This document shows positions 1 through 28,651 of a DNA stretch of 35,153 bases, in pieces. Every line of letters begins with the position of its first letter. The stretch's first letter is position 1. Where the stretch lies: the NCBI RefSeq assembly GCF_030382115.1, contig NZ_JAUDRJ010000003.1:5544565-5579717 (forward strand). Direction: 5' to 3'. The notes under the pieces are model-generated. The model was not told the origin of the DNA. It did not search any database and saw only the letters and a program-made list of their open reading frames with translations. Position numbers and translations under genes: made by a program. The DNA comes from Nostoc sp. GT001 (GTDB lineage Bacteria > Cyanobacteriota > Cyanobacteriia > Cyanobacteriales > Nostocaceae).

Positions 1-1007
1 CCATAATGTGTACCTGCAACTTTCCCTCGAAACACAATGTAATTGTAGATGTTGTAGAACAACATAATGGGAATCAGAAATCCAATGAAGATAATCATAA
101 ACACTAACGCGCTAGGTGCTGCGGCTGCCTGATAAATTGTGATACCTGGAGGAATAATATAGGGAAAAACAACTAATCCTAACCCAACAAAGCTAAGTAG
201 AAAAAGCAGTACTGTCCAAACGAGGGGAGTAGTTTCTGCTTTGCGGTTCAGGCTTTGAATCAATAACCAAATCAGCAGCACACCTAACACTGGAATGATT
301 GAAAATAGATACACTTCTGGCTGATGAAATAACTTTGCCCTGGCATTTTCATACACAACAGGGGTGGCGATCGTGATCAAGATTGCACCTAAAAGCGTTG
401 TCCAGGCAGCGAGTTTGGCTGTGCGGTAATGGGACGCTTGTAGTTCTCCCTCAGTTTTTAAGATGAGATAGGTGGAGCCAATCAATACATAACCCTGGAT
501 TAATGTCAAGGCAACCAGGAGCGATCGCCAATCGAACCAATCCCACATACCGCCGATAAAGTGACCCGCTGCATCCACCTTGATGCCTTCCAAAATCGTG
601 CCCAAGGCGAATCCTTGAAATAGCGCCGCCATGAAACTACCGACTCCAAACGCTACATTCCAAAACACTTTGTTTGTAGAATGCTCTCGAAATTCAAAGG
701 CCACAGCCCGAAAAATCAAGCCAAAGATCATCCCAAAAATAGGAATGTAGAGCGCATTTAAAATAGTGCCATAAGCCAGAGGAAATGCCCCAAACAACGC
801 ACCCCCCATCAACACCAACCAGGTTTCATTGGCATCCCAAACATTACCCAAACTCGTCATTAAGATGTCGCGTCGGTCGTCATTGGAACTTGTTAGTGAT
901 AGGATGCCTACGCCTAGATCAAACCCGTCTAACATGACGTAGAGAAATAAAAACAGAGCTAAAATGACAAACCAAACCTGCGCTAAAAAGTGTTCCAGAT
1001 TCTCCAT
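1..1007 (-). CDS. cydB: Cytochrome bd-type quinol oxidase subunit II, 3' end cut by window edge
   Basis: Reading from an ATG at 1007 to the left edge gives 335 open codons with no stop, starting MENLEHFLAQVWFVILALFL and continuing LDGFDLGVGILSL, the hallmark N-terminus of CydB. SLGNVWDANETWLVLMGGAL follows and is also family-typical. The protein is strongly hydrophobic, with about eight membrane segments expected. The family usually has about 335-380 residues, and the last visible residues (FRGKVAGTHY) look like a CydB tail, so little is missing. With CydA it forms the heme bd oxidase that oxidises quinol and reduces oxygen in the membrane. It lies 93 bases downstream of cydA on the same strand, so the two are probably co-transcribed. 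There is no stop inside the window, so the end is unknown. Confidence 0.95.
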   Translation of the reverse strand, partial: MENLEHFLAQVWFVILALFLFLYVMLDGFDLGVGILSLTSSNDDRRDILMTSLGNVWDANETWLVLMGGALFGAFPLAYGTILNALYIPIFGMIFGLIFRAVAFEFREHSTNKVFWNVAFGVGSFMAALFQGFALGTILEGIKVDAAGHFIGGMWDWFDWRSLLVALTLIQGYVLIGSTYLILKTEGELQASHYRTAKLAAWTTLLGAILITIATPVVYENARAKLFHQPEVYLFSIIPVLGVLLIWLLIQSLNRKAETTPLVWTVLLFLLSFVGLGLVVFPYIIPPGITIYQAAAAPSALVFMIIFIGFLIPIMLFYNIYNYIVFRGKVAGTHY

Positions 1008-1044
1008 ACAGTTACCTATTGATTTACCATACTCAGCACTCTTC

Positions 1045-1097
1045 ATTACGAATTACGAATTGCGAATTACGAATTACGAATTACGAATTGCGAATTG
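1045..1097. repeat. Heptamer tandem repeat (STRR type) in the cydA-cydB gap
   Basis: About seven and a half copies of a 7-bp unit, ATTACGA with two ATTGCGA variants, run without interruption. They fill most of the short space between the cydA stop and the cydB start. Short tandemly repeated heptamers between genes are known from heterocystous cyanobacteria. The array would be transcribed within the cydAB message. Confidence 0.9.
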
Positions 1098-1100
1098 ATT

Positions 1101-2543
1101 TCATTGCTCTGCTTCTACAGGACGTTGATCTGGAACAAATTCAGCCGGAGTAGTTTCTGCGACAGGTTCGGTGTCAACGCCTGGAACCGGAAGTTCCAGA
1201 TTCGGGCCTTGACGAATGATGCGACTACCAAAGAATAAAGCACAAATAAACAGGGTTGTATAAATTCCAGTAAAAATGATCAAGGATGTTAACACCTCAC
1301 TAGCAGGTAGGTGAGAAACTCCGTCTGCGGTGCGAATTTGCCCATAAAGCACCCAAGGTTGCCGCCCAACACAACGCACAATCCAGCCTGATTCGACGGC
1401 GATGTAGCCCAATGGAGCCGCCAAAATCCAGATTCGCAGTAGCCATTTCTGCGAGGCGATCGCTTCTGGTGAGAGTTTTCCCCGCAACCACTGAATCACA
1501 CTGAGTCCCATCAATCCAGCCAAGAAGAAGCCAATGCCGCTCATAATACGGAAAGAATAATAAATCAAACCCACCATCCGGGGGCGATCTTCAGGCTTCC
1601 AATGTTTCAGTCCAAGAACGGGTTTAGAGAGGTTCTTTTTAAATTCCAAAATATAGCCTAAGCCGTTGGGAATTGAGATTTCCCAATCATTTTGCTCAGT
1701 CTGATTATTGGGTAATGCCACCACACTCCAAGGCGCGGGCTGTCCGGCTGGAGAGGTTTCCCACTTGGCCTCCATCGCCGCGAGTTTGGTAGGTTGATAA
1801 TCAGCTACTTGTTCGGCGCTGAGGTGTCCGACATAGATTTGTAATGGGGTGACTGCGATCGCAGTTGCTAAGACAATTTTAAGCGATCGCGCAAAGAAAG
1901 CCTGATGACGTTTGTTGAGAATATACCAAGCGCTAATTCCCCCAATCACAAACAGCGAAGTTTCCAGCGTCGCCAAAAACATGTGCGAGACACTGTTGAG
2001 CATGAAGGGATTTAAAATTGCCTGAAAGTAATCATCCACAACAAACTTCCCATTCACCATTTCTCCGCCAGCAGGAGTCTGTAACCAAGAGTTGGCCGCT
2101 AAAATCCAGAAGGTAGATAGGTTTGCGCCAAAGGCAACCATAATCGTGGCGAAATAGTGAATCACTGGGTTGACTCGTTCCCAGCCAAACAGCATAATCC
2201 CCAGAAATCCAGCTTCTAGCATGAATGCCATCGAAGCCTCAAAGCCTAAAATGCTGCCAAAAAAGTCGCCTACCGCTTCGGAAAACGGTGCCCAGTTCGT
2301 GCCAAATTGAAACTCCATCGGCAAACCGGATGCTACACCAATACCGAAGTTCAACACATATAGCTTTGCCCAGAAACGAGCATGGTGATAGTAATCGGGA
2401 TTGCGTGTTTTGAGCCACATTCCTTCGACTATGACTAGATAAATCCCCATCCCAGTGGTGAGAACAGGCCATAGCATGTGAAAGATCGCCGTCAGTGCAA
2501 ACTGCATCCGCGATAAGGCAACGGTATCCGAGAGAAAATCCAT
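1101..2543 (-). CDS. cydA: Cytochrome bd-type quinol oxidase subunit I
   Basis: The 480-residue membrane protein is the heme-bearing subunit of the bd-type (CydA/CioA) quinol oxidase, which reduces oxygen to water without pumping protons. Candidate heme ligands are visible: His22 in the first helix (AIFHMLWP), His187 in SVSHMFLATLE and Met334 in FRIMSG. Glu102 and Glu110 (GFEASMAFMLEAG) match the conserved acidic pair near the haems, and GRQPW at 393-397 is the family signature. It is shorter than the E. coli protein (522), which fits the short Q-loop type found in cyanobacteria and CIO enzymes. The ATG at 2543 has AGAGG about 8 bases upstream. cydB follows on the same strand. In heterocystous cyanobacteria such oxidases can serve respiratory protection, but nothing here shows cell type. 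Confidence 0.96.
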   Translation of the reverse strand: MDFLSDTVALSRMQFALTAIFHMLWPVLTTGMGIYLVIVEGMWLKTRNPDYYHHARFWAKLYVLNFGIGVASGLPMEFQFGTNWAPFSEAVGDFFGSILGFEASMAFMLEAGFLGIMLFGWERVNPVIHYFATIMVAFGANLSTFWILAANSWLQTPAGGEMVNGKFVVDDYFQAILNPFMLNSVSHMFLATLETSLFVIGGISAWYILNKRHQAFFARSLKIVLATAIAVTPLQIYVGHLSAEQVADYQPTKLAAMEAKWETSPAGQPAPWSVVALPNNQTEQNDWEISIPNGLGYILEFKKNLSKPVLGLKHWKPEDRPRMVGLIYYSFRIMSGIGFFLAGLMGLSVIQWLRGKLSPEAIASQKWLLRIWILAAPLGYIAVESGWIVRCVGRQPWVLYGQIRTADGVSHLPASEVLTSLIIFTGIYTTLFICALFFGSRIIRQGPNLELPVPGVDTEPVAETTPAEFVPDQRPVEAEQ

Positions 2544-2773
2544 GAACTAACCTCTGAATTCGTTTAAATCTTTACTTGCACAGCATCTTTGGGTTATAGC
2601 CGAATGCATTAAAGATACCACTGGGAACACAAGAGGAGTACGAAAATTTTCTCCGTTGTAACTCAGTCTGCCTACACAAGCATTTTGTGAGACTTTAATT
2701 AGCGATCGCTGCACTAAATTTCACAAGTGCGTAGCCGTAAGGTTTGTCCTCAGACATTGCACTCTGAAAGTTA

Positions 2774-3526
2774 TTAACTTGTAGAAGTGCTAAAAGATAG
2801 TGCAGATGCTTCCAGTAGATGCGGATGGTGGCGTTCCCAAAAACTCAAAATCTGTTCGCCAACCTGTTGAGGATAGAAGTAGTGAAAAAAATGATACCCT
2901 TGTGGGCATTCCCAGAGCTTATCTTCTGGCTTGAACCAATTCAACCAGTCATGTAATGCAGTTGGGTTGACTACCGGATCGCTCTTGCTACCACATACCA
3001 TCATTGGCATAGAAACTCCACCCTTGGGTAAATAAACCAACTTAAATAAAGAGTGTGATGATGGAGATTGTTCTAAATCTTTATCTAAGGCAGCTACTAA
3101 CTTTTTAGTGGTATGAGCTGGTTGATTTCCAAATAGACTGCGAACGCTGCTTGCCAAAACTAACTCACGGCTAATGCTAAAAAGTTGTCGTTGAAAGTAA
3201 TAGTGAGCTTGCCAATTGTTTGCAGGTTGAGCTGCTACAGCCAGCAGAGTTAGCGATCGCACTTTTTGCGGAAATCGCCGCGCAAAGGTTAAGGCGATCG
3301 CACCACCCATAGCATGTCCTGCTAAATGCACAGGGCGATCGCGCCATTCTAAAAACTCATATAGCAACTCCACAGCTTGATCTATGGAACTTGCTTCATC
3401 TTTGGTTTGCTGGTATTCCCACTGGGCGACATTTATATACCTAGATAAATATTCAAGTAATGGTTTATCAAAACGCTGCAAAACAGGACTGGCACTTAAC
3501 CATAAAATATCAAATGAATCAGACAT
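2774..3526 (-). CDS. isiC: Alpha/beta hydrolase-fold protein downstream of flavodoxin (IsiC-like), nucleophile replaced by Ala
   Basis: The 250-residue protein has the alpha/beta hydrolase layout. The nucleophile elbow reads AGHAMGGA, so the position that is Ser in GHSMGG is Ala72 (codon GCT). The other triad candidates are kept: Asp183 in CGSKSDPVV, and His212 or His215 in GYHFFHYF. There is no signal peptide. It sits 67 bases downstream of isiB on the same strand, the arrangement of the isiB-isiC part of the cyanobacterial iron-stress operon, and the symbol rests on that order plus the fold. A perfect palindrome lies between the two genes. Without the serine, ordinary ester hydrolysis is unlikely, so it may be a binding or scaffold protein or use another mechanism. 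The substrate is unknown. Confidence 0.8.
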   Translation of the reverse strand: MSDSFDILWLSASPVLQRFDKPLLEYLSRYINVAQWEYQQTKDEASSIDQAVELLYEFLEWRDRPVHLAGHAMGGAIALTFARRFPQKVRSLTLLAVAAQPANNWQAHYYFQRQLFSISRELVLASSVRSLFGNQPAHTTKKLVAALDKDLEQSPSSHSLFKLVYLPKGGVSMPMMVCGSKSDPVVNPTALHDWLNWFKPEDKLWECPQGYHFFHYFYPQQVGEQILSFWERHHPHLLEASALSFSTSTS

Positions 3527-3563
3527 AAATACCTATAACTTCTAAATTATCAACTTCAACAAA

Positions 3564-3585
3564 GGCGCACAGCTAGCTGTGCGCC
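3564..3585. terminator. Perfect 22-bp palindrome between isiB and isiC-like gene
   Basis: Arms GGCGCACAG and CTGTGCGCC surround a CTAG centre, giving a stable 9-bp GC-rich stem just after the isiB stop. On the minus strand it is followed by TTTGTTG, only a weak U-run. It could partly terminate transcription or stabilise the flavodoxin message. It may equally be one of the dispersed palindromic repeats seen elsewhere in this window. Confidence 0.6.
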
Positions 3586-3593
3586 CCAAATCT

Positions 3594-4106
3594 CTACAAA
3601 CCAAACTCTGTCTTCAACTGAGCAACCCAAGTTTTAATTCGCTCATCTGTTAAATCAGATTGACTACCTTCATCAAGTGCCAATCCGACAAACTTGCCAT
3701 TTCTCAAAGCTCTAGATTGATCGAATTCATACCCCTCAGTTGGCCAGTAACCAACGGTTTTACCACCCCGTTGGGAAATTTTTTCTTCCAGAATTCCAAT
3801 TGCATCCTGGAAGTTATCGCTATAGCCATATTGGTCTCCATCACCAAAATAGGCAACCAGCTTACCACTAAAATCTATTTGATCTAGATCGGAGAAAAAG
3901 CCTTCCCAATCGCTCTGAAGTTGACCAATATCCCAAGTAGGAGAGCCAATAATTAGCAAGTCATACTCATCAAAAGTGCTGCTATCCGCTTCGTAAATGG
4001 GATGCAATGTCACAATATCATCACCAAACTCATCCCGAATTTTTTCAGCATCAGATTCAGTGTTGCCAGTTTGAGTACCGTAAAACAAACCAATTTTTTT
4101 TGACAT
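3594..4106 (-). CDS. isiB: Long-chain flavodoxin
   Basis: The 170-residue protein closely follows the Anabaena long-chain flavodoxin from memory. The FMN phosphate loop is TQTGNT at residues 11-16. The two aromatic residues that sandwich the flavin are Trp58 (SPTWDIG) and Tyr95 (DQYGYSDNFQ). The long-chain insertion is present, and the C-terminus (WVAQLKTEFGL) is complete. It is a soluble one-electron carrier that replaces ferredoxin after photosystem I under iron shortage. The hydrolase gene follows. The usual isiA partner is not upstream: the next 1.2 kb has no gene. No convincing Fur box could be read upstream, though FurA control is the norm for this gene in cyanobacteria. Confidence 0.97.
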   Translation of the reverse strand: MSKKIGLFYGTQTGNTESDAEKIRDEFGDDIVTLHPIYEADSSTFDEYDLLIIGSPTWDIGQLQSDWEGFFSDLDQIDFSGKLVAYFGDGDQYGYSDNFQDAIGILEEKISQRGGKTVGYWPTEGYEFDQSRALRNGKFVGLALDEGSQSDLTDERIKTWVAQLKTEFGL

Positions 4107-5307
4107 ATTGACACCTGATAAATAAATAGTTGTGTGTTCTGCTGAAAAGTCGCCCTGAGAGGTTGGTTAATCCAGCGTTCTCTGCCCATCAAGACATCGA
4201 CTCAAGTGTTTGAACAGCCACGCAAGTCAAAAGCGTTATCTTTTTAGACAGTTTGCAAATAGCTGAAATACATGGCTTGCTTAATGAGTATTAATCTCAA
4301 TAACTCTGAAGATATAGTACCAGAGTTATTGACAGTCTTTTTCATTTATAGCAGTAAAGTTATGTTAAGTATTTCAGCAAAAAAACCGAAAACTAGACGA
4401 GGCAGCAAGAATTCTCGTACCTTAATTGGTCAGAAACCTCGCACTTACGAGTCGTAATGCGTAAAGCCCCCGGAATAAACCAAGACTTGATCTTGGAAGG
4501 TCCCGTTAATTTTTGCGTTAACGTTCTTTGTAGATTAATCGCTTACAGCAGTTTTGTTTTAGTTTTGTTTTATATGAAGTACAAAGCTACGGGTTTTGAG
4601 GCAGGAGCAAGGAAGTAGAAACTTGATGGGCAAGTCCTGCTGTACCTCATTTACTTGAAAACAGCTGTAATACCATTTCACGAAATGCTTGATACCAATG
4701 ATTTATCTCTAACTCTTTCCCCCTCTGACCCCGTTTGGGTAGGCTACCTCGGCTCCGGTTCCATCGAGCGACTTGTACTGAGCGTAGTCGAAGTAAGTAG
4801 AGATGATCGGCACAAGTCACGGCAAGCCTACTCCCCTGCTGCTTATTTGTATCAACCTTAAAGTGAAAAAGAATATAGAGACGAGCAGCACTAAGTCCCT
4901 ATTAGGGTTCTGTATAACGCATATTTAATTTCTGGAAATGTCTTTTTAGCTTGATGAAGTCCGCTTATGCGGACTTCGCTTGTATAGCCTAGTCATTCCC
5001 AGAAATTACGCAACTGGCACAAAGTTAAATATGTGATTAAATCAGGTTGCAGTCAACGACTGAAAAGATATTTTACGTAATACGCATTATGGTTATCTCG
5101 TATTATGCAGAAGTTCTAAGTGTAATATACTTCCGCAGAAAAAATTTGGGTATTATTACTGAATCTTTATCAGTATTTTCACTGTATTATCTTCAGTTAA
5201 AGAGCCAAACCAATAGATTATTAAGAAAGTCTAAAGGTATGGATTAATACGTAGAATGTAGTTTAAAACATCCATTAACTCAATCAAAATTTAAGAGATA
5301 CAAAGAT
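4107..5307. other. 1.2-kb intergenic region without a convincing gene
   Basis: Only short open frames (60-68 codons) occur, with no ribosome site, no recognisable family and poor composition. The stretch includes the isiB promoter region on the minus strand and the decarboxylase promoter region on the plus strand. Visible structures are a small inverted repeat CCAAGA/TCTTGG at about 4479-4495, a copy of a sequence containing CTGAGCGTAGTCGAAG at about 4777 that I recall as a common dispersed cyanobacterial repeat, and the nested palindrome at 4927-5007. Confidence 0.6.
4927..5007. repeat. Nested inverted-repeat element, about 81 bp
   Basis: The outer arms AATTTCTGGAAATG (4927-4940) and CATTCCCAGAAATT (4994-5007) pair at 13 of 14 positions. 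The centre is a perfect palindrome at 4956-4977, with arms GAAGTCCGC and GCGGACTTC around TTAT. The segments between outer and inner arms also partly pair. The whole could fold into one long hairpin. It resembles a small non-coding palindromic repeat or MITE-like unit. Target-site duplications were not convincingly seen. Confidence 0.65.
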
Positions 5308-6459
5308 ATGTCAAATAAAGTCGCTAAGGAATTGGCTGATTTTCTGCTGCAAATAGAACAGCGATCGCAGCTTCATGCAGGCTATCCATATAATTTAAGT
5401 TGTGATTACAGTGCGATCGCTAAATTTTTCAATCTTCTGTTAAATAATGCTGGAGATCCATATATTGAACCAGATTTTGGTCTCCATTCTCGTAAGTTTG
5501 AGCAAGAAGTATTATCTTTTTTTGCCCAACTCTATAAAATTCCAGAAAATGAGTTTTGGGGTTATGTTACTGCTGGCGGAACTGAAGGTAATTTATATGG
5601 AATATTCTTAGCAAGAGAAATCTATCCCGATGGCATTCTTTACTCATCACAAGACTCTCATTACTCTATACCAAAAGCAGCAAAACTATTCCGCATTCAA
5701 CATAATGTTGTTAACTCACAAATTAATGGAGAGATGAATTATGAACATTTTGAACAACTCATTAGCGAAAATCGCAATTATCCTGCGATCGTCAATTTGA
5801 ATATTGGGACTACTGTCAAAGGCGCAATTGATAACTTAGACAAAGTTCTCGAAATCTTAGAACGCAATCAGATTAAAGATTACTACATTCATTGTGATGC
5901 CGCCCTTTCAGGATTAATATTACCCTTTCTAGATGGCGCTCCACAAGTTAACTTTCAAAAACCCATAGATAGTATAGCTATTTCTGCTAAATTCATTGGT
6001 TCTCCCTTGCCTTGCGGTGTAGTTTTAACTAAGAAAAAATGGGTAGAAAAAGTTGAAACAGCAATTGAATATATTGGTTCATCAGATACAACAATCCTCG
6101 GTTCTAGAAACGGTCATACCCCTCTGATTCTCTGGTATGCAATAAAAACCAGAGGTTATGATGGATTAGCCAAAGAAGCAAATACCTGTATAGATAATGC
6201 GCAATATCTTTTCCAACAACTTAAAATCAGAGAATATCCATGTATGCTCAATAAATTTTCTAATACCGTAGTGTTTCAAAAACCTTCTCAAAGGTTAATT
6301 AAAAAGTGGCAGTTAGCAATTTATGAAAATTGGGTACACATTGTAGTCATGCAAAATATCGATCGGCACAAAATAGATACTTTTGTTAACGAGCTTTTGT
6401 TAGAAGAAGGGTTGCTCGATAAGGTAGACAATTTCCAACTACAATCATCCCGACACTAA
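5308..6459 (+). CDS. hdc: PLP-dependent histidine decarboxylase-like protein
   Basis: The 383-residue, fold-type I PLP enzyme resembles the bacterial PLP histidine decarboxylases (about 378 residues), which convert histidine to histamine and CO2. Family signatures in order are: LHSRKFEQEV; the phosphate-binding TAGGTEGNLYG; DSHYSIPKAA with the His expected to stack on PLP; HCDAALSG with the Asp that contacts the pyridine nitrogen; and the Schiff-base Lys228 in AISAKFIGSPLPCG. In relatives I recall the last motif as SGHKFIG or SGHKMIG. Here one residue is missing and the His before Lys is lost. Serine or other amino-acid decarboxylase activity is the alternative. The gene faces the permease fusion tail to tail, 74 bases apart, which suggests but does not prove a link to an imported amino acid. 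No SD of full strength is visible. Confidence 0.82.
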   Translation: MSNKVAKELADFLLQIEQRSQLHAGYPYNLSCDYSAIAKFFNLLLNNAGDPYIEPDFGLHSRKFEQEVLSFFAQLYKIPENEFWGYVTAGGTEGNLYGIFLAREIYPDGILYSSQDSHYSIPKAAKLFRIQHNVVNSQINGEMNYEHFEQLISENRNYPAIVNLNIGTTVKGAIDNLDKVLEILERNQIKDYYIHCDAALSGLILPFLDGAPQVNFQKPIDSIAISAKFIGSPLPCGVVLTKKKWVEKVETAIEYIGSSDTTILGSRNGHTPLILWYAIKTRGYDGLAKEANTCIDNAQYLFQQLKIREYPCMLNKFSNTVVFQKPSQRLIKKWQLAIYENWVHIVVMQNIDRHKIDTFVNELLLEEGLLDKVDNFQLQSSRH

Positions 6460-6533
6460 GAAGAGATTGTCAAGTGAAATTTATTGCCCAGTTTGACAAA
6501 GTGTTTCTCTAAACAGAATTTGCTCCCAAAATT

Positions 6534-9500
6534 TTATCTTTTTAAAAAGTTTTTTCCGCACAAATTAGCAGCAAGTAGTATTTCTACTTCTGCCTGTTCC
6601 ATAGGTGGTAAGAAAAAATACCCTTGCCCATAATCACATTGTAAAGCCTTCAATTGTGCTAATTGGTCTACAGTTTCTATGCCTTCTGCTGTTACAGACA
6701 TATTTAAATTATGGGCTAATGTCACAATCGCTCGAATAATTTCTAAGTTTTCTCCTCGACTACCTATACTGGTGACAAAAGAGCGGTCAATTTTAATGGT
6801 TTTGATTGGTAGGCGATGTAGATAACTCAAGGATGAATAGCCAGTTCCAAAATCATCCATGTGCATTTCAACATTCAGCGCTGTTAACTGGGAAAGCACA
6901 GTGGTAGCTAATTCAAAATTATCCATCAACAAGCTTTCAGTAATCTCCAATTTCAAACAGCATGGCTCCAGCCCAGTTTGCTGCAAAATATGTTTAACCT
7001 GTTTAAACACATCAGGTTGCGTAATTTGTTTACCAGAAAAATTTACGCTAATCGTCAGAGGTTGTGAGGTAGGAAATTGTTGATGCCATTTGTGCATTTG
7101 GTAACAGGCTTCATAAAGCACCCATTGACCAATACTAATAATCATTCCAGTTTCCTCAGCCAAAGGAATAAAATCTTGAGGGGAAATAAGTCCTCGTTCT
7201 GGATGATACCAACGTATCAGTGCCTCAAATCCAATAATTTTGCCTGTTGTTAGTGAAACAATTGGTTGATAATCAAGGCGAAATTCTTCTTGCTTGAGCA
7301 GCGCATTTCGCAGAGCAGTTTCTAACTCTAAGAGCAAAGCTGCACCCTCGTGCATCTTTGGATCAAAAACCTCATAACGTGCCTTACCAAGTGATTTTGC
7401 ACAATACATTGCCACATCAGCATCGCGTAAAATCTGCGCTGCTTGCTCATAATCTGCTCTACTTAAAGCAATGCCAATACTAACATTAGTAAACACCCGA
7501 TGCTCATTTAATTGAAATGGCAAAGCTAACACCTTTTTAATTCGCTCGGCAACCTGTATTGCGGTGTTGACATCCTCAATTTCCTCAATTAAGATTGTGA
7601 ACTCATCTCCGCCAAAACGGGCAACTATGTCTCCACCTCGCAGAACTGACTTTAGCCGATGAGAAATTGCAATCAAAAGTTGGTTTCCTAGTAGATGTCC
7701 AAGGCTGTCATTAACTACTTTAAAGCGGTCTAGGTCTAAGAAGAGTACAGCAAATAAATAATTATTTTGCTGTTGAGCTTGTTCTATTGCCTGTTGCACC
7801 CGCTCCATAAATAATCGTTGATTAGGTAATCCAGTTAGCCCATCATGAAGGCTATTGTGCAGTAATTGTTCTTGTGCTTCTTGACGTTTAATAATGTCTT
7901 GTTGAAGTTGTTGATTAACTCTAATAAGTTCAATGGTGCGTTCTAGCACCAACTGCTCAAGCTGATAACGATACTGGACTAATTCTTCCTCTGCTAGCTT
8001 CCGCTTAGTGATGTCACGAACAATAACAATATACTCTCGTAGCAGAGAATTAAATGGCTGAGAAATCGTCGATTCAACAATTCGCAAACCTTGGTTAATT
8101 TTCAAGCTTTGCTCGCTTCTAGTAGACCATTGCTCCGGTTTGCCGCGATAGCATATTAGAAGTTGATTCAAGTTTTGCCCAAGTAACTCCTGAATACTTG
8201 TTTGAAATAATTCTTCAGCAGCTGCATTTGTCTGAGAAATTTTTCCGTCTTCATCTAATACTAAAACAGTATCTGGAACCGTATCTAGAGTAGTGATAAA
8301 TAGGTTTCTTGCTTGTTTGCGCGCTTCATCAATAGCAATGATTTGTGGTAAAGTTGTCCAGCAAGCGATCGCAACTCCCGTAAAAGAAAGCGTCACTAAT
8401 AAAATTGCAAGGAAAGAATTTTGAGGATTATTAGAAAGTCTATCTAAAAAATCACGAATAACCCAACTGATTGTGGCAGTAATACAAATCAATGATACTA
8501 AAACAATCACTTGTAATACTACAAAATCTGGATTATTTCTAATAGACTTAGTATCGTAACGCTGTGTCCACCAATTTGGATGTAATGGCGCAAATCTTAA
8601 GCGACGTAGCACTAAATCTCCGCTCATCAAAATAATGGGTAATAATAATCCCGCTAAGAAATCTCTCCAGTTCCAAGCTAAACCTCCCACTATTAAAACT
8701 ACCGCCTCTACCAAGAAAAAACTAAGTGACCACCAAGGCCATAACACGTATGCTTTGCCACGACACATCCATAATCCCAGATGTAGACCCATAATAGACA
8801 TGAGATAACAGGTGCCTGCTACTGTGACAAGTTGAGGTACATTTCCCAAATTTAGACAAAGCAAACTGAGGAGAAAGGTAACTAAAATAGCAGGACCAAG
8901 GACACCTTGACGGGAAACTAATGTAAATATCGGAGCAAGCTGTCTGTCTAAGGCAAGCTGGTATAATATCCGAGGAGAGTTAGAAACTGCTGTAGCAGAA
9001 CTTAGAAGGCAAGATATAGTAATCAGAAGTGTTACTAGAAAGGGGGCAAATTCACCCCAAAAAGGCTTAGAAGCTGCTACTAGATTTAAGAACGCATCGT
9101 CACCTATTCTAGGATTGGGAGCCGAACACATTAATACCCAAGAACCACCTAGAAACACCGGAGGAATTAACCAAGCAGCTACGGTTAAAAACTTTAAAGT
9201 TTTATATGGATGGCGACTATCAGCAATAAAAGAAGAAGTGGTTTCACAAGCATAAATTGAATAGCTAGCTAGAAAAAACCACTTTGTCCATTCTTCAAAG
9301 CTTAGGCTATGTGTGCTAGTTGGGGAAAATTGAAAACTAGGAGATGAAAAGGCTAACCATAATACACCTTGAACACAAAACAATAACAGTAATAAAATCG
9401 CTGGGAATACAAAAAATAAATGTAGAAGCGCCAAAGCACGGGTGCCACTGAAGGCTAAAATAAATGGAATCGCTGTAAATAAGACTTTTAAGAAAGTTTC

Positions 9501-9917
9501 TGGACAAGAAATACCTAATGTTTCAAAATTGACTTTAATTAGGTTGGTTAGAATAATTGCATACAGTGCTGGTGCTGCTGCCCAGCTAAAAAAGTATCCT
9601 AATGCTACGTAACGGCCTAAGCCAGGGAAGTTCTTTAATAGCCTTGTGGTATAGTTTGGTGTTCCTCCGGCAACATCTGACCAATGTTTACCTAGACTTT
9701 GTACCTGCAAGTTAAGCAAGAAAGAAATAATCGTGCCAAAAAACCAAACTAAGATAGCTTTCGGCCCTAACGCTGCATGAATGATGGGGGCAGTACCAAT
9801 CCATCCAACATGACCAGTTAACCCGAAGCCCCAGGTTTCGAGATAACTTAGAGTCCGTGGTAGGCGCATTAGCAAGTGCTGATTGTTGTCCGCCCGTGCA
9901 GAATCGTTACTAACCAT
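6534..9917 (-). CDS. Fusion protein: APC-type amino-acid permease - PAS - GGDEF - EAL
   Basis: This is one uninterrupted 1127-residue frame. Residues about 25-530 are a polytopic permease of the amino acid-polyamine-organocation type: a first helix with a broken GLTGHVGWIG segment; ASYSIYACETTSSFIADSRHPYKT resembling APC helix 6 with its conserved Glu and downstream basic loop; and SNSPRILYQLALDRQLAP resembling the helix 8 region. A PAS domain (about 540-655) and a coiled-coil linker follow. Next is a GGDEF domain with intact GGDEF at 769-773 and an RGGD inhibitory site five residues before it. Last is an EAL domain with Glu898-Ala-Leu, ITES, DDFGTGYSSL, KIDRSF and EGIE all present. Both cyclase and phosphodiesterase motifs look active. 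It probably couples binding or transport of an amino acid or amine to c-di-GMP level at the membrane. The substrate is unknown. Weak SD (AAGAA) before the ATG. Confidence 0.9.
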   Translation of the reverse strand: MVSNDSARADNNQHLLMRLPRTLSYLETWGFGLTGHVGWIGTAPIIHAALGPKAILVWFFGTIISFLLNLQVQSLGKHWSDVAGGTPNYTTRLLKNFPGLGRYVALGYFFSWAAAPALYAIILTNLIKVNFETLGISCPETFLKVLFTAIPFILAFSGTRALALLHLFFVFPAILLLLLFCVQGVLWLAFSSPSFQFSPTSTHSLSFEEWTKWFFLASYSIYACETTSSFIADSRHPYKTLKFLTVAAWLIPPVFLGGSWVLMCSAPNPRIGDDAFLNLVAASKPFWGEFAPFLVTLLITISCLLSSATAVSNSPRILYQLALDRQLAPIFTLVSRQGVLGPAILVTFLLSLLCLNLGNVPQLVTVAGTCYLMSIMGLHLGLWMCRGKAYVLWPWWSLSFFLVEAVVLIVGGLAWNWRDFLAGLLLPIILMSGDLVLRRLRFAPLHPNWWTQRYDTKSIRNNPDFVVLQVIVLVSLICITATISWVIRDFLDRLSNNPQNSFLAILLVTLSFTGVAIACWTTLPQIIAIDEARKQARNLFITTLDTVPDTVLVLDEDGKISQTNAAAEELFQTSIQELLGQNLNQLLICYRGKPEQWSTRSEQSLKINQGLRIVESTISQPFNSLLREYIVIVRDITKRKLAEEELVQYRYQLEQLVLERTIELIRVNQQLQQDIIKRQEAQEQLLHNSLHDGLTGLPNQRLFMERVQQAIEQAQQQNNYLFAVLFLDLDRFKVVNDSLGHLLGNQLLIAISHRLKSVLRGGDIVARFGGDEFTILIEEIEDVNTAIQVAERIKKVLALPFQLNEHRVFTNVSIGIALSRADYEQAAQILRDADVAMYCAKSLGKARYEVFDPKMHEGAALLLELETALRNALLKQEEFRLDYQPIVSLTTGKIIGFEALIRWYHPERGLISPQDFIPLAEETGMIISIGQWVLYEACYQMHKWHQQFPTSQPLTISVNFSGKQITQPDVFKQVKHILQQTGLEPCCLKLEITESLLMDNFELATTVLSQLTALNVEMHMDDFGTGYSSLSYLHRLPIKTIKIDRSFVTSIGSRGENLEIIRAIVTLAHNLNMSVTAEGIETVDQLAQLKALQCDYGQGYFFLPPMEQAEVEILLAANLCGKNFLKR

Positions 9918-10347: not shown

Positions 10348-11233
10348 CTATAGCTTTTGCAACAACTCCTGAGTTAATTGCAAGAAAGCTTTTGAACCTG
10401 CTGATTGAGGAGCATTTAAAACAGCTGGCATAAAACTATCAACAGCTTTAGCAACATTGACATCAACTAGGTATTTGTACCTTACAAATTTTATCGACAC
10501 CAAAATCTTCGACAACGCGGTGCATTACTTGTTTATAGTATCTACCAGTGAGCAGGTTAGCACTGGACATACTAAATACAATTCCCAACATTTTTATATC
10601 TATCTTGGTTTCATGTCCGTGACTATCTTTTAATTGGGCAATTCGTCTTTCTAGCAGTTGAATACCCACTACAGATAATGGTTCGGGTTTAGCAGGAAGT
10701 ATGTAGAAATCGCTGGCGGCTAAAGCACTACGAGTCAATAGATTATAGCCAGGGGCGCAATCGAGAAGGATAAAATCATATTCTTGACGTACTGGTTTTA
10801 AGATGTTATTGATTAAGACCCTTTCAAAGCGATTCCAAATCGTTTCAAAGTCCTGTTCGCCTAAAGCAGTTGCTTGCTGATGCAGCATTTCTGAAACAAC
10901 AAATTCATCATATAAATCGATGTCTCCGGGTAATAAATCTAGTCCAGGAAGATTACAAACCTGGGATTGAACAATATCCTGAATTGTGAATTTTGCTTGG
11001 GGATCTGGATTGATAACTTCGTCTATCAGATACCTAAATGTCTTACTTTGTTTACGAAGCTTGGCAAAATCTAAAGGCGACATCAAACTGAGTGTGGCGC
11101 TAATTTGGCTGTCTAAATCAAGAACCAGCACCCGCTTGCCATGATTTTTAGCTAAACAGGTAGCTAAGTTGACCGTGAGGGTGGTTTTACCAACACCACC
11201 TTTCATATTGGCAGTAGCAATTACATATCCCAT
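10348..11233 (-). pseudogene. ParA/MinD-type partition ATPase, frameshifted near the 3' end
   Basis: The N-terminus carries the deviant Walker A KGGVGKTT in TANMKGGVGKTTLTVNLA, followed by VLVLDLDSQ (Walker A') and FILLDCAPG (Walker B). These are features of ParA-type ATPases that position plasmids, chromosomes or protein cargo. The frame from the ATG at 11233 (GAGGA about 9 bases upstream) ends early at 10463 after CKVQIPS. Shifting frame at about 10477 restores KYLVDVNVAKAVDSF and goes on through QLTQELLQKL to a stop at 10348-10350, a normal ParA tail. The span is one base more than a multiple of three, so there is one extra base or two missing bases. No parB-like gene is beside it. It is either a sequencing error or a real late truncation of about 38 residues. 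Confidence 0.85.
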
Positions 11234-13477: not shown

Positions 13478-16400
13478 CTAAATTTTTAAATTTTGAAACT
13501 TTGTAAACTGTGGATTGAACAAAAGTTTCGCTGTACCCGTAGGCCCGTTGCGGTGTTTAGCTATAATAACTTCTGCAATACCGCGATCGGGAGTATCGGG
13601 AGAGTAGTACTCGTCGCGGTATAACATTATTACTAAATCCGCGTCCTGTTCGATCGAATTGTGAACTATGATGTTATTCGCAACAAAGTTATGCAAACCA
13701 GGAACCGTAAGATCAAAGACTTCTTCCTCGCCGCTATATTCAATTGAAATTATTTCGTCCCAATAAACATCACTTTTGGCAAGAGTAACGAGTTTAGATG
13801 ATTGAACAACTTTGCCGACTTTTAAAGCTCTTTCCCGACTTAAATTTACTTTGTAAAGAGTAGAGCCACAATACGAAATTCCAATAGAGGCTTGCAATAT
13901 CCGTGTGGTGAAGCCAATAGCCTGCATTGCAGGTACAACCTCTATTTTCCAAACATCCTTCGGAATTATATCTCTATTAGGGTTGTGAATACTGTTTTCA
14001 AGGTGTTGGAAAATATCTTGGAGTGAACGTAGCTTATATTCTCCAACTGCTCCAACATGAATAATAAACAACTGGAGATCGGGCTTACCAGTGATTATTA
14101 CATGATGTTGATTTCTGCCTTTCCCAACTTGAGGAACTGTCCTTAGTGTTGCGTTAATGCCAAGTCTTAATAAAAGTGTCTGTATATCAAAAGCTAGTCT
14201 CTGGCTACTCGTTGCATAATATGCAATAGGTCTTAAGTTTTTTCCTGCAACCAATTTTATACAGCCATCTGTACTCCAAAGGTGTCTTAAAAAGCAACTT
14301 ATTAACTCTTGAGGTTGTGAGAACAATTCTTGAGGTACAAATTTTTCATAAGACCTTAAACCAAAAACACCGAGAGAGTCTAGCCATTTGGCTATTGGAT
14401 TTCTTACATGATGAGTTAGATTCTGTGCTGCGGATAAGTAAACTTGATACCACCCACGTTCAGGTGAAATTCTAGGAACAATTGAATCTCCAAAAACTTC
14501 TGTTGCCAAGAAAGCAACATTCTGAGCTAAATCTATCTCTCTGGTAGTGTACTGTATGGCATGACGTGGTAATGTACAACCGTCGCCAATTAAATGTCCT
14601 AATAATGCAACTTCCGCATAAGTCATGGTTTGTTTACCAGAACTAGGAAGATGTCTTGGTAAACATAGATGTTGTTTAGGAGTTAATTCATCAAGTCTTT
14701 TCCAGCCATTAATTGTTAAAAATTTGTGATTACCTGTGGCACGGATTTTTCGACCCAATCGAGTTGTTAAAGTAAACAGAGGCTTTACACCAGTAGAAAA
14801 AGCATTGCTAACAATTGCTTTTTCTAGCTGCATTGTAGCTTCGTTCAACGCCCAAACTGCAAAACCAGATTTACCTGCTAATTCCTTAATTGGTACTTGC
14901 AGTCCGTCTGGAGCTAATGTTACCAAAGTATCACCTGCCAAACAACCGGATTCTCTCAAATCAGATAACATTGGACGCTTGTTTGTGCGTGCTTCCACTC
15001 CTCGACTCAACTGAGATAAGGCAATAACTGGAACAGATAATTCCCGCGCTAAACCTTTGAGTTGACGCGTAATTTTTGATAATTCTTGTACGCGATTATC
15101 ACCTGCTCCTTCCATCAATTGCAAGTAATCTATTACAATTAATCCTAATTCAGTGCCAATTTCAGCTTGCAGTCTTCTTGATTGACTACGCATTTGTGTA
15201 ACTGTAATATTCGGCGTGTCATCAATATAAATTGGCATCTCGGAGAGGATACCAATAGCGCGGCTTAAAGGTTCCCACTGCGTTTGACTCAGGCGACCAG
15301 TTCGCAAATAACTACTTTCAATTTGCGCTTCACTAGCTAATAGACGTTGCGTCAGTTGCTCTTTGGACATTTCCAAGCTAAAAAAAGCAACTGGTAATTT
15401 ATAAGAAGCAGCGATATTATGAGCTAGATTCAGACAGAACGCGGTATTGTGAACACAGATATCATTGGCGACAAAATTGTGTGTTTCTGGGATTGTTAAG
15501 TCATAAACTTGTTTGCATCCCATCGATTCAATCGAAACTATTTCATCCCAGTACACATCACTCGCTGCTAACTGTTGAAGTGGCGAATTTTCTAAAGTAC
15601 TTGCTAATATCCAAAGCCTTTCTCGTGTTAAAGCACGTTTCCCAACATGGATATTTGAATACCCTTGAATTCCGGCACGTTGAGCTAAAAAAGTCCAAGG
15701 TTCATTACCTTTAGCTGTTGTTATCTGTTCCCAAATTTCTATTGGAATGAGGTCACGATTTGTTTGATATCTCTTTTTAGCTATTGCATCTGCGACTTTA
15801 GTTAATGCCTCTTCTTTGCCAAAAATACCAATTTCTGAGATAAAATTTTTGATGCTCTGGGCATCAGTAATATCTAATTGCCAAGCTTGTCTGCGAGTGT
15901 CTTTATATTTCACAGAGCGTTTTTTCAGACTGGCAATAATTCCAAATCGCAATAACAAATGTTGTATTTGTCTAGCTAATTTTTCGCTGACAGTACAGTA
16001 GCCTAACTGCGATTGACCGCTTGTAAGTACTGTAGCCCATCCATCGGTTGCAAATAAACGATTGAGGAATAAGGAAACTTGCGATCGCTCCAATTTAAAA
16101 ATAGCTTGCGGAATGATTTTGGCATCAGCTTTTTTGCCCCATAGTCCTATGTTTTCCAACCATGTTGTTAAAGGATTCTTTTGCCCTTGAGACATAGCTG
16201 CATAGAGTATTGGGGTGCGTTCACTCCTAATTTCTATCCTAACTTTCAACTTGGGTGAAAAGCTGATAACAGCGTCTGTGAAATCATTTTGGATGCGAGA
16301 GTTAATATTAGTAAATTCTGGTGTTGAATCTGTTAAGCATCCATCACCTATGAAATATGCCAATAATTTAACTTCACACTCGCGGATAGTTTCTGTACCA

Positions 16401-17362
16401 AATACATTAAGTTTACGAGCTACAGCAATTTTATCCCCTACTCTTAATTCTGAAAGTTGTCGCCATCCATTGATGGTTAAATAAGGATGGGTGATAGTAC
16501 TTTCAATATATCGTCCTAAGCGAGTAGTAACACTAAAAACTGGTTTAATGCCGTCATTAACAAAGGCTGAAGCTTGAGTTAAATGAAACTTCCAATCATT
16601 TCCTAAAGTTATTAACTCAGCTTGCCGACGATGATATATTTCTTTAATAGTTGAGATACTCCCGTCACTCAAAAGTATTTCCACATTTTCATGCAAACAT
16701 TTCCCCATTGATGGGCGGCCCGCGATAATAATCAAATCAGAACGCTGAAAGCCGCTAGTCATGGCATCTAAATCGTAAAATCCGCAGGGAATTCCAGGTA
16801 AGGCGATGCCTTGATTTCGATCTTCAATATCCTGAAAATTATTAATTAGAGTATCAGAAATGTGAACTAAACCCGATTGGGGACGCTCTTGAGTAACGCC
16901 GAATACTTTCTGTTCTGCTTGATCTAAAACCTGTGGTAACTCGGTTTCTGTCTCGTAACCAAGATGTACAATTTCATTGCCAGCTTTAATTAACTGTCGC
17001 CGCAGGTATTTTTCCATCACCAACCCGGCTAACCCGTCGATGTTCACCGCTGACACTGTGCGGTCTACCAGAGTTGCTAATTTATTTCTGCCACCAATTC
17101 GAGCCAGTAACTCGTGGTCAGTCAACCAACTTGTGACTGAGAGCAAATCTGTGGGTTTACCTTGGGCATGGAGCCTCACAGCTGCTTGATAAATATCTTT
17201 GTGAGCGCTAATGTAAAAAGCTTCAGGAAGAAGGCGATCGCTAACTCGACTAATCGCTTCTGGATCTAGCAAAATACCACCCAAAATCGCTTCTTCCGCC
17301 TCAATATTTTGTGGTGGGAGGCGATTGCTACCATCGCCTTGAAAACTCAATTCTTCAGCCAT
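13478..17362 (-). CDS. dnaB: Replicative DNA helicase DnaB with two inteins
   Basis: The 1294-residue precursor becomes 447 residues once two inteins are removed, the normal size of bacterial DnaB, the hexameric helicase of the replication fork. Extein landmarks are the N-terminal domain (NIEAEEAILGGILLDPEAI), the Walker A GRPSMGK with the following Thr640 separated by intein 1, SLEMSKEQL, the Walker B region GLIVIDYLQLM, SQLSRGVEAR, and LSDLRESG joined to SIEQDADLV after intein 2. Both insertions sit in the most conserved ATPase motifs, so splicing of both is needed for function. rplI lies upstream on the same strand, a common cyanobacterial order. The start at 17362 gives MAEELSFQGDG, typical for the family. 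Confidence 0.97.
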   Translation of the reverse strand: MAEELSFQGDGSNRLPPQNIEAEEAILGGILLDPEAISRVSDRLLPEAFYISAHKDIYQAAVRLHAQGKPTDLLSVTSWLTDHELLARIGGRNKLATLVDRTVSAVNIDGLAGLVMEKYLRRQLIKAGNEIVHLGYETETELPQVLDQAEQKVFGVTQERPQSGLVHISDTLINNFQDIEDRNQGIALPGIPCGFYDLDAMTSGFQRSDLIIIAGRPSMGKCLHENVEILLSDGSISTIKEIYHRRQAELITLGNDWKFHLTQASAFVNDGIKPVFSVTTRLGRYIESTITHPYLTINGWRQLSELRVGDKIAVARKLNVFGTETIRECEVKLLAYFIGDGCLTDSTPEFTNINSRIQNDFTDAVISFSPKLKVRIEIRSERTPILYAAMSQGQKNPLTTWLENIGLWGKKADAKIIPQAIFKLERSQVSLFLNRLFATDGWATVLTSGQSQLGYCTVSEKLARQIQHLLLRFGIIASLKKRSVKYKDTRRQAWQLDITDAQSIKNFISEIGIFGKEEALTKVADAIAKKRYQTNRDLIPIEIWEQITTAKGNEPWTFLAQRAGIQGYSNIHVGKRALTRERLWILASTLENSPLQQLAASDVYWDEIVSIESMGCKQVYDLTIPETHNFVANDICVHNTAFCLNLAHNIAASYKLPVAFFSLEMSKEQLTQRLLASEAQIESSYLRTGRLSQTQWEPLSRAIGILSEMPIYIDDTPNITVTQMRSQSRRLQAEIGTELGLIVIDYLQLMEGAGDNRVQELSKITRQLKGLARELSVPVIALSQLSRGVEARTNKRPMLSDLRESGCLAGDTLVTLAPDGLQVPIKELAGKSGFAVWALNEATMQLEKAIVSNAFSTGVKPLFTLTTRLGRKIRATGNHKFLTINGWKRLDELTPKQHLCLPRHLPSSGKQTMTYAEVALLGHLIGDGCTLPRHAIQYTTREIDLAQNVAFLATEVFGDSIVPRISPERGWYQVYLSAAQNLTHHVRNPIAKWLDSLGVFGLRSYEKFVPQELFSQPQELISCFLRHLWSTDGCIKLVAGKNLRPIAYYATSSQRLAFDIQTLLLRLGINATLRTVPQVGKGRNQHHVIITGKPDLQLFIIHVGAVGEYKLRSLQDIFQHLENSIHNPNRDIIPKDVWKIEVVPAMQAIGFTTRILQASIGISYCGSTLYKVNLSRERALKVGKVVQSSKLVTLAKSDVYWDEIISIEYSGEEEVFDLTVPGLHNFVANNIIVHNSIEQDADLVIMLYRDEYYSPDTPDRGIAEVIIAKHRNGPTGTAKLLFNPQFTKFQNLKI
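13658..14944 (-). other. Intein 2 of DnaB (residues 807-1235) with LAGLIDADG endonuclease
   Basis: The 429-residue intein lies between LRESG and SIEQDAD, the site used by the Synechocystis DnaB intein. It starts with Cys807 (CLAGDTLVTL), has block B TGNHKFLTINGW, and ends VANNIIVHN with penultimate His and final Asn1235. The next extein residue is Ser1236, as needed for splicing. Two dodecapeptide motifs, LLGHLIGDGC (about 920-929) and FLRHLWSTDGC (about 1024-1034), each keep an acidic residue, so the homing endonuclease may be active. Confidence 0.95.
15446..16699 (-). other. Intein 1 of DnaB (residues 222-639) with LAGLIDADG endonuclease
   Basis: The 418-residue intein splits the Walker A motif between GRPSMGK and TAF. 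Cys222 begins it (CLHENVEILL), block B is STITHPYLTINGW, and it ends ANDICVHN with Asn639. The following extein residue is Thr640. The endonuclease motifs LLAYFIGDGC (about 333-342) and FLNRLFATDGW (about 432-442) are present with their aspartates. Its C-terminal block (SDVYWDEIVSIE, HNFVAND) is closely similar to intein 2, so the two are probably related. Confidence 0.95.
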
Positions 17363-19547: not shown

Positions 19548-20911
19548 ATGAAGCTAATCCATACAACTAGCTGGTATTTTCCAGATACATCAGCCGATGC
19601 TGAAGTATACTTAGATTCACTACTGCATGGCTTACAAGTACATGGACTAGAAAGTATTGTTGCTGCTCCTAAACAGGGTACAGAAGAAGATACCTACGAA
19701 TACAATGGCATCTCAGTTTATCGTTATCCTGTTTTTCCCAACCCCAGCAAGATACAGGTACACAAGCAGCTACCCCACGGCGGCTTTGAAACTTTTGCTA
19801 ATTGGCTAGAAAACAATCGAGCCGATGTCTACCATCAACACTCATGGCGATTTGACTGCGGTTTACATCATCTTGCTCTCGCCCGCCAGTTAGGGATGGC
19901 TACTGTAGTCACCGTCCACATACCTGAGCCTATATGTCTGCGTGGTACGATGATGCGCTGGGGTGAAGAACCTTGCAATGGGTTGATTGACTCTGTTAAT
20001 TGTAGTCAATGTTTGGGAGTAGCAAAGCAAGTATCGCCTTGGATGCTCAAGGCTTTAGGTCAAGTTCCCTTAGATGTTGGCATCGCAGCAGAAACAAAAT
20101 TACTTACCTCTAAAAATTTCAAGCTGCGTCTACTTGGTAAAACTCTTGGTATTCCTACCCTAGTGTCTCAACATAGACGGAATTTGATGCAACTAGCAAA
20201 ACTAGCCGATCGCATTGTTGTAACGAGTAATTGGCAATACAATGCTTTTGTTGCAAACAAGGTTCCTCCCGAAAAACTTACTGTCTCTCGCCAAGGTGTT
20301 GCTAACACTTTTAAACGTGAAGTAACACCAAACAAACTACAAAACTCTACATTAAAAATTGGCTTTTTGGGCGCTGGCAAGAAACTAAAGGGGTACAAGT
20401 TTTAGTAGAAGCCGTACATAGTCTACCGAATGATGTACCTGTAGAGTTAATTCTTCATGCTACTCATCCGGGAAAATACGGTGCTGCCAATCGTGAAAAA
20501 GTTATGGCGATCGCGAGATGCGATCGCCGGATTCGGATTGCTGAACCACTTTCACGCGAAGCAGTACCAGAGGCATTAGCAGGTTTCGATATACTAGCAA
20601 TACCGTCGCAGTGGTTAGAAACTGGCCCCATAGTTGCTTTAGAAGCACAAGCTATGGGCATTCCCGTACTAGGTTCAAATTTAGGAGGAATTGCTGAGTT
20701 AGTCCGCCACGGCATCGATGGTTGGTTAGTTCCAGCCAAAGATGTCCAAGCATGGGCACAAGCGATCGCAACTTTAGCCAAAGACGCCGATTTACTAGCT
20801 AAATTACGTCAAGGTATCCAACCAGTACGTACAATGGATACTGTTGCCTCAGAGATGTTGGCACTTTACCATGAAATCTTAAAAATTCCTCAGAAAAATT
20901 TTGTATCTTGA
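19548..20911 (+). pseudogene. GT4-type glycosyltransferase, frameshifted in the middle
   Basis: The first frame (285 codons) starts MKLIHTTSWYFPDTSADAEV and shows a GT-B N-domain with the motif HSWRFDCGLHHLAL and a Cys-containing segment (PEPICLRGTMM...EEPCNG...NCSQCLG) seen in some sugar transferases. It stops at 20405 after GAGKKLKGYKF. Shifting frame at about 20372 gives WQETKGVQVLVEAVHSL, typical of the start of the GT4 C-domain. This continues through IPSQWLETGPIVALEAQAMG, the nucleotide-sugar EX7E-like region, to the stop at 20911. One base is missing; the restored protein would be about 454 residues. It is the first gene of the glycan run. A sequencing error and a real inactivation are both possible. 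Two overlapping HIP1 sites lie near 20505-20526. Confidence 0.9.
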
Positions 20912-27741: not shown

Positions 27742-27744
27742 TTT

Positions 27745-28635: not shown

Positions 28636-28651
28636 TGTTAGGAGTATTACA

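Follow-up and report, generated by a model that had tools for sequence, protein, structure and literature searches.

In a stretch of 35,153 nucleotides from the cyanobacterium Nostoc sp. GT001 (contig NZ_JAUDRJ010000003.1, positions 5,544,565 to 5,579,717 of the forward strand; hereafter the window), a single gene on the minus strand joins a membrane module with the fold of APC-superfamily amino acid permeases to a PAS domain and to the GGDEF and EAL enzymes of cyclic di-GMP (c-di-GMP) turnover. On balance we lean towards a joint reading, in which the module is an input part that cyanobacteria derived from an APC-superfamily transporter, and the fusion is a receptor that sets c-di-GMP in response to a small amine or amino acid from the pathway of a neighbouring decarboxylase. 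That it would read such a compound is suggested because the gene usually adjoins a decarboxylase of an amine-making type; within this reading ethanolamine or serine would be the most likely ligands, and histamine or histidine would come second. The N-terminal 535 residues would be the input module, a 12-helix-type APC core with two extra helices, and a small ligand would bind in, or pass through, the core. The movement would be relayed from the last transmembrane (TM) helix, which carries the motif ACWT[ST]LPQ, through a helix to PAS and on to GGDEF and EAL, and would thereby change net c-di-GMP. The receptor role, the ligand, this relay and the balance between the two enzymes are what we infer from the results below; the architecture was computed directly, and the features are these, numbered in the window:

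6534 to 9917, minus strand: APC-2TM-PAS-GGDEF-EAL fusion gene, 1127 amino acids (aa), from the open reading frame (ORF) and Pfam.
8553 to 9869, minus strand: APC-fold core, residues 17-455, from an AlphaFold2 model, Foldseek with VIA-align, and Pfam AA_permease and AA_permease_2.
8316 to 8531, minus strand: two extra TM helices, residues 463-534, joining the APC core to PAS, from hydropathy and the model.
8343 to 8366, minus strand: motif A518-C-W-T-T-L-P-Q525, where the last TM helix ends, from conservation over 311 rows.
7998 to 8300, minus strand: PAS domain, residues ~540-640, from Pfam (PAS at 543-588) and the secondary structure of the full-length model.
7383 to 7850, minus strand: GGDEF domain, residues 690-845, with the I-site RGGD at 760-763 and GGDEF at 769-773, from Pfam.
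6603 to 7316, minus strand: EAL domain, residues 868-1105, from Pfam, with the catalytic set kept.
5308 to 6459, plus strand: pyridoxal phosphate (PLP)-dependent group II decarboxylase (Pyridoxal_deC), tail-to-tail with the fusion, 74 bp between.
5983 to 5991, plus strand: Ser-Ala-Lys228 at the PLP lysine, from alignments, one residue shorter than the Ser-Gly-His-Lys of solved relatives.

The first-pass annotation had read one frame of 1127 codons as an APC-like transporter followed by PAS, GGDEF with an RGGD I-site, and EAL. The domain search bore this out on the minus strand, with AA_permease, AA_permease_2, PAS, GGDEF and EAL all matched in Pfam. That the N-terminal half might belong to a non-transport sensor family had been raised as well; its Pfam matches are to amino acid permease models only, with no SSF/SLC5 domain at E ≤1. 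An assembly artefact or a chance fusion was ruled out by the homologue search and by a survey of named loci. The architecture had been thought undescribed, and the listed results of our searches of open-licence papers, the top rows in the case of long lists, contain no account of it, which is weak evidence since other papers lie outside that scope. The architecture is visible in public databases, where the names given to these proteins are "amino acid permease" or "EAL domain-containing protein". The words "permease" and "transceptor" occur nowhere in a review of c-di-GMP inputs (PMC8846402), nor does "permease" in a survey of Anabaena enzymes (PMC13075795).

The window protein scores 36.4 bits on AA_permease (Pfam cut-off 24.6) and 44.8 bits on AA_permease_2 (cut-off 27), and at E ≤1 the two models are matched by 20 and 5 of 26 members in a sample of the family. 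A plain sequence search of residues 1-550 against the PDB gave no match at E ≤1. A profile made from whole proteins (A1) drew mostly kinase and GGDEF structures, so a domain-only alignment (A3) was built; with the module family profile, LysP alone gave a meaningful match by sequence in the PDB (E 4.4e-5). Among the best structural matches of the APC core in the AlphaFold2 model are y+LAT1 and AdiC, and in the fragment model helices are broken near residues 38 and 222, as in the LeuT/APC fold. The full-length model has the break at 38 and a continuous helix at 207-233. The extra TM helices are modelled at 463-493 and 499-534, with a predicted local distance difference test score (pLDDT) mostly of 57-75, and because the predicted template modelling score (pTM) of the full-length model is 0.51 we left the arrangement of the domains uninterpreted. 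The hhalign mapping to AdiC was poor (probability 46 local and 14 global, with TM1 shifted), and equivalences in TM1 were for this reason set by eye.

Conservation was followed over 311 module rows, made up of 229 database proteins (the best 120 matches per list) and 82 ORFs from loci, two sets that overlap. P172, W210, S234, R316, Q320, R386 and W485 are kept in all 311, H166 in 310, F31, W39, R160, E225 and T309 in 309, E27 in 308, Y219 in 298 and Y222 in 289. The motif of the last TM helix is kept as firmly (W520 310, T521 311, P524 306, Q525 310); its family form, ACWT[ST]LPQ, stands immediately before the linker to PAS and is a candidate for the coupling element. G38 in TM1, which by eye we place as the second Gly of the GxG carboxylate site, is Gly in 147 rows, Leu in 100 and Ser in 39; if the glycine that binds the carboxylate has been lost, this would be in keeping with an amine as ligand. 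In our own reading of the alignment with LysP, together with PMC12764776, Y219 corresponds to the gate residue Phe215 and S220 to Ser216.

The first-pass annotation had called the protein a transceptor that turns amino acid or amine flux into a c-di-GMP signal. Of this, the APC fold is real and the reuse of the module with three outputs fits a transporter-derived receptor, while transport and flux as the signal go beyond the support. The module possibly still transports, and the protein could be a working transporter that also signals, with transport cycling and not binding alone driving the output, as proposed for CbrA, whose SLC5 domain transports histidine without the kinase part (PMC7918813). 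The complete APC core and the strong conservation of E225, Y219, R316 and Q320 agree with such a transporter, but the strong module matches stand in long fused frames, some short or broken copies aside, G38 is kept in fewer than half of the rows, and Ala173 occupies the position of the proton-coupling Lys162 of LysP (again our own reading, with a numbering offset of 12). We therefore regard it as unlikely.

The survey of the architecture across cyanobacteria showed the module to be a reusable input with several types of output, and it led beyond the first-pass annotation, to a wider family with kinase and phosphatase outputs and to a conserved decarboxylase neighbour. By domain comparison the 311 rows divide into 156 with a histidine kinase, 121 with EAL and GGDEF, seven with SpoIIE, two with GGDEF only and 25 with none; an H-box motif is found in 13 of the last group, which gives 169 kinases and 12 unclassified rows and makes the histidine kinase the commonest output in the sample. 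In the genome of the window all 11 candidates were scored and two are module copies, the fusion and an APC-PAS-kinase paralogue that is 50% identical to it over residues 7-666. Across the phylum, 34 of 292 genomes have a module match at E 1e-5. When up to five candidates per genome were scored with the module profile there were 36 strong matches (at least 672 bits) in 27 of these 292 genomes, none of them in a frame shorter than 822 aa, and the remaining matches were broken remnants (44-173 bits) or scored 26-41 bits. Five of the 31 strong matches inspected are of the GGDEF-EAL type and 26 of the kinase type. In the order, the module is present in 104 of 388 genomes (E 1e-40), where a few copies are in short frames or contain stops, some of them near contig ends. 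Two or three module-bearing genes are clustered in one stretch at L079, L083 and G099:C1:1184753-1192663 (L, G and P numbers are our own handles for loci, genomes and proteins).

Two trees of the module were made, a quick one of 120 rows, supported by SH-aLRT (an approximate likelihood ratio test) only, and a careful one of 44 rows chosen from these by hand; the root was not inferred. Both need at least six changes among kinase, GGDEF-EAL and SpoIIE outputs, which indicates that the outputs have been swapped repeatedly, and a kinase output first would be the simplest reading. The GGDEF-EAL clade of Nostocales (100/100) is sister (96/91) to a clade of seven kinase rows, which includes L077, from Aliterella atlantica, and L080. 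The record of L080 is named Tatlockia sp. MGR_bin123, not after a cyanobacterium, and its module and decarboxylase group with those of cyanobacteria, so that it looks mis-binned or mislabelled.

One could also suppose that the APC part is a non-sensing membrane anchor or a platform for dimerisation, and that PAS is the sensor. The fusion does have a PAS domain, and PAS domains sense in other c-di-GMP enzymes (PMC8846402). We find this highly doubtful, however, since many residues of the membrane part are near-invariant across outputs, beyond the needs of an anchor, and since there are module-kinases of about 820-860 aa that have no PAS match (P0122-P0125, L019, L023, L024, L026 and L141; P0123 has no PAS in the Pfam match columns, yet its NCBI name is PAS-containing).

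The output enzymes of the fusion look intact. Over 121 APC-GGDEF-EAL rows, which are database proteins and locus ORFs that overlap and include the window protein, D771, E772 and F773 of GGDEF are kept in all, and R760 and D763 of the I-site in 118 and 119. The catalytic set of EAL domains consists of E, N, E, DD, K, E and Q, and the corresponding E898, N959, E991, D1021, D1022, K1042 and Q1098 are kept in every row and E1078 in 119. The best NCBIfam match of the C-terminal half is to the Tlr1612 family, with 488 bits over residues 668-1117 (cut-off 1600), and because this is the nearest model one could guess, and only guess, that the fusion is a net phosphodiesterase.

The partner that points to a ligand is the decarboxylase. 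In the named-locus survey 80 loci were kept of 218 found, and 37 are of the GGDEF-EAL type, 36 from Nostocales and one, L082, from Aliterella. A decarboxylase lies near the fusion at 33 of the 36 Nostocales loci, within 400 bp at 31 of them and always on the opposite strand. Seven of the 292 phylum genomes have the decarboxylase (E ≤1e-40), and all five in which the GGDEF-EAL type was found carry it, the two genes adjacent in each. The 388 order genomes gave 40 decarboxylase matches in 39 genomes (E ≤1e-60). With at least 72% identity, a line drawn after the data had been seen, 16 of 16 stand beside a module on the same contig, against none of the 24 at 71% or below. Two of the 16 are with the kinase type (G421 and G466) and 14 with the Nostocales type, for which GGDEF-EAL was checked directly in six and assigned in the rest from frame length and identity. 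The two surveys overlap, L077 being in G421 and L080 in G466 as judged by contig and frame lengths. At these two loci of the kinase-bearing sister clade a short-motif decarboxylase flanks the module on its other side and is head-to-head with it, a gene order unlike that of the fusions, so that the pairing appears to have outlived a swap of output. The pairing with two outputs and in two gene orders is a direct result of the survey.

Some further neighbours were seen at these loci. Behind the kinases of L077 and L080 comes a receiver-DUF4388-receiver regulator. In the window a ParA-like ATPase (10463-11233, minus strand) lies upstream of the fusion on the same strand, and it is present at 27 of the 36 Nostocales fusion loci. 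A short-chain dehydrogenase adjoins the decarboxylase in L077 (5844-6650), L164 (5739-6503) and L073 (11871-12641), and in the latter two it lies between the decarboxylase and the fusion.

The decarboxylase of the window scores 534.8 bits on NF002748, histidine decarboxylase (equivalog cut-off 305), a predicted activity, and it is the sole match in its own genome at E 0.001. Among solved structures it is closest to entries that bear the name serine decarboxylase (393, 393 and 382 bits), with histidine decarboxylase next (311 and 309). The sequence GYPY fits Tyr111 of the Arabidopsis serine decarboxylase AtSerDC (PMC11407765); at the same position the 393-bit entries read GYPF and the histidine decarboxylases GYPE, and the former may represent the alanine decarboxylase of tea that the same paper describes. 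A His directly before the PLP lysine is present in all five solved relatives that were aligned and absent from the decarboxylase of the window. The short motif, SA-K or SG-K, is found in the window and in 35 of 36 module-adjacent copies in the named loci (L111, with SGHK, is the exception). By a script pattern, the best 120 of 3959 homologues comprise 76 short, 34 usual and 10 unclassified motifs, P0324 being counted as usual through a pattern match elsewhere in its sequence.

Seven unlinked decarboxylase loci (L156-L162) were examined, and all have SGHK. The closest two of the seven, in G457 (71%) and G411 (69%), adjoin a separate APC permease of 484/485 aa, for which TIGR00908, the model of ethanolamine permease, gives 391.4 and 378.5 bits against a cut-off of 381.75, and no such gene is present within the fetched stretch at the other five. 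Because these two neighbours are ethanolamine-permease-like, the reaction of this enzyme line would seem to be serine to ethanolamine. In 19 relatives TIGR00908 has 11 matches at E 0.001 and none above the cut-off (best 341.9 bits, G131), a level at which 14 controls also gave none, so that there was no positive control. L158 (G452), 844-6851, is a further case of signalling genes next to a decarboxylase: after a relative of the usual type (60%) come, on the same strand, a HAMP-PAS hybrid histidine kinase, with a Cache match below cut-off, and a GAF-nucleotide cyclase.

A bolder version of the receptor reading would have cyanobacteria possess a class of APC-fold receptors, one of which in Nostoc couples ethanolamine or serine to c-di-GMP, and the paired decarboxylase with its altered lysine motif would have changed role, being slowed, making another product or serving as a regulatory partner, and the pair would replace the serine decarboxylase and ethanolamine permease of the relatives. 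We consider this rather unlikely.

Several observations weigh against an amine receptor tied to the decarboxylase. The enzyme is not near the fusion at L070 (a contig end), L071, L074 and L082, and among the 44 named loci other than Nostocales fusions, L082 included, it is found at only three: L077, L080 and the kinase-type L111, which has a partial SGHK-type relative upstream. G465 and G354, each with an unlinked decarboxylase, hold a module on another contig; the decarboxylase contigs are short and the genes further out therefore unseen. In essence the pairing comes down to one arrangement in each of two clades, tail-to-tail in Nostocales and head-to-head in L077 and L080, and since the 14 are one clade and the identity line is post hoc, the weight rests on the gene order and sister position of L077 and L080. 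In L080 (G466) the kinase frame is split into two overlapping ORFs, and this copy may thus be broken or mis-sequenced. From its histidine decarboxylase score and altered lysine motif, the enzyme of the window may not make the expected amine. Both permease-adjacent loci are in one family (f3), EutB was found in none of the 19 relative genomes with an E. coli positive control that matched, so that use of ethanolamine as a nutrient would not go through that enzyme, and in profile comparison the module is not especially similar to the ethanolamine-permease-like proteins. Descent of the module from such proteins was considered and is unsupported (on the module profile they score 5.0 and -0.2 bits, and AdiC 3.2).

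The module might then sense something unrelated to the decarboxylase, such as a compatible solute, a trimethylamine-like compound or the state of the membrane or of ions, with the neighbourhood a case of hitchhiking. The rarity of the decarboxylase outside the Nostocales fusions agrees with this, as does the finding that a trimethylamine N-oxide permease model weakly matches 25 of 26 modules, at E ≤1 and far below cut-off; this match is also a hint of an amine in the reading that we prefer. The genes within 4.5 kb of the same 44 loci were clustered with BLAST; judged by eye, the largest cluster consists of multi-domain sensor kinases and occurs in 21 loci. All others are in at most seven loci, mostly in near relatives, and the decarboxylase is one of the clusters with three. 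Hitchhiking fits badly, though, with a pairing that sister clades show in two gene orders and with two outputs, and with the division between close and distant decarboxylases, and we hold an unrelated ligand to be decidedly unlikely. A receptor for a compound of the decarboxylase pathway is what we prefer.

Among the other genes of the window is a DnaB-type replicative helicase frame of 1294 aa (13478-17362, minus strand), in which we see by eye two apparent intein-like insertions, after ...GKCLHENV and ...ESGCLAGDT. An ABC exporter-like protein of 746 aa (22239-24479, plus strand) has at its C-terminus, also by eye, the H-box-like stretches SHELRTRLN and SDEFRTRLY. A glycosyltransferase-like gene (19548-20911, plus strand) is apparently, again by eye, in two frames of 285 and 135 aa, perhaps through a frameshift, and lies close to a row of three similar proteins (26761-29680).

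Fusions and kinships of transporter folds with signalling outputs are already known, for SLC5 in CbrA and for the S-component fold. An APC module with one strongly conserved linker and with kinase, c-di-GMP and phosphatase outputs would form a case of its own in prokaryotes, and a sizeable one. Since three readouts are available for one and the same input, it could be asked directly how a conformational change in an APC protein reaches an enzyme, and the pairing with a decarboxylase gives a short list of ligands. The pairing could also tie the amine metabolism of Nostoc to c-di-GMP, lichen partners included, as L039 is a Peltigera cyanobiont. The signals for the sensor domains of the major Anabaena enzymes remain to be identified (PMC13075795).

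Several known systems resemble the fusion in part. Integral membrane inputs on a GGDEF-EAL output are found in the MHYT, MASE and CHASE proteins. None of these three is among the Pfam matches of the fusion at E ≤1; MHYT is mentioned in PMC8846402. The C-terminal half is like that of cyanobacterial GGDEF-EAL proteins of the Tlr1612 family, but the fusion scores far below the family cut-off and has another N-terminal input; Tlr1612 itself is reported to be a major aggregation repressor with suspected phosphodiesterase activity (PMC5871770). An APC permease working with an amino acid decarboxylase is a likeness to LysP-CadC and to AdiC/AdiA, and LysP also takes part in the control of a decarboxylase operon (PMC12764776). 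In E. coli the gene adiC lies close to adiA. In LysP and AdiC, however, the permease is a separate protein, whereas here it is fused to c-di-GMP enzymes. The 5TMR fold is that of the ECF S-component, which differs from the APC fold and is smaller. The receptors with the 5TMR/S-component fold are otherwise like the module, a transporter-related membrane fold used in a modular way with PAS, GGDEF, EAL and kinase outputs; the S-component fold has been called the first transceptor case found in prokaryotes (PMC11109136), and the APC module would be another.

CbrA and CrbS share with the fusion a LeuT-type transporter domain, PAS and a signalling output, and the ligand of CbrA is histidine (PMC13022988, PMC7918813). 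CbrA consists of SSS/SLC5, STAC and a kinase, whereas the fusion has an APC part of the AA_permease type, no SSF match and a GGDEF-EAL output; STAC gave no match among its Pfam results, the presence of a STAC model in the library being unconfirmed. The relatives of the module with kinase outputs are nearer to the layout of CbrA, yet they are of the APC type, and we would thus describe the fusion as a protein that may work like CbrA but is not a member of its group.

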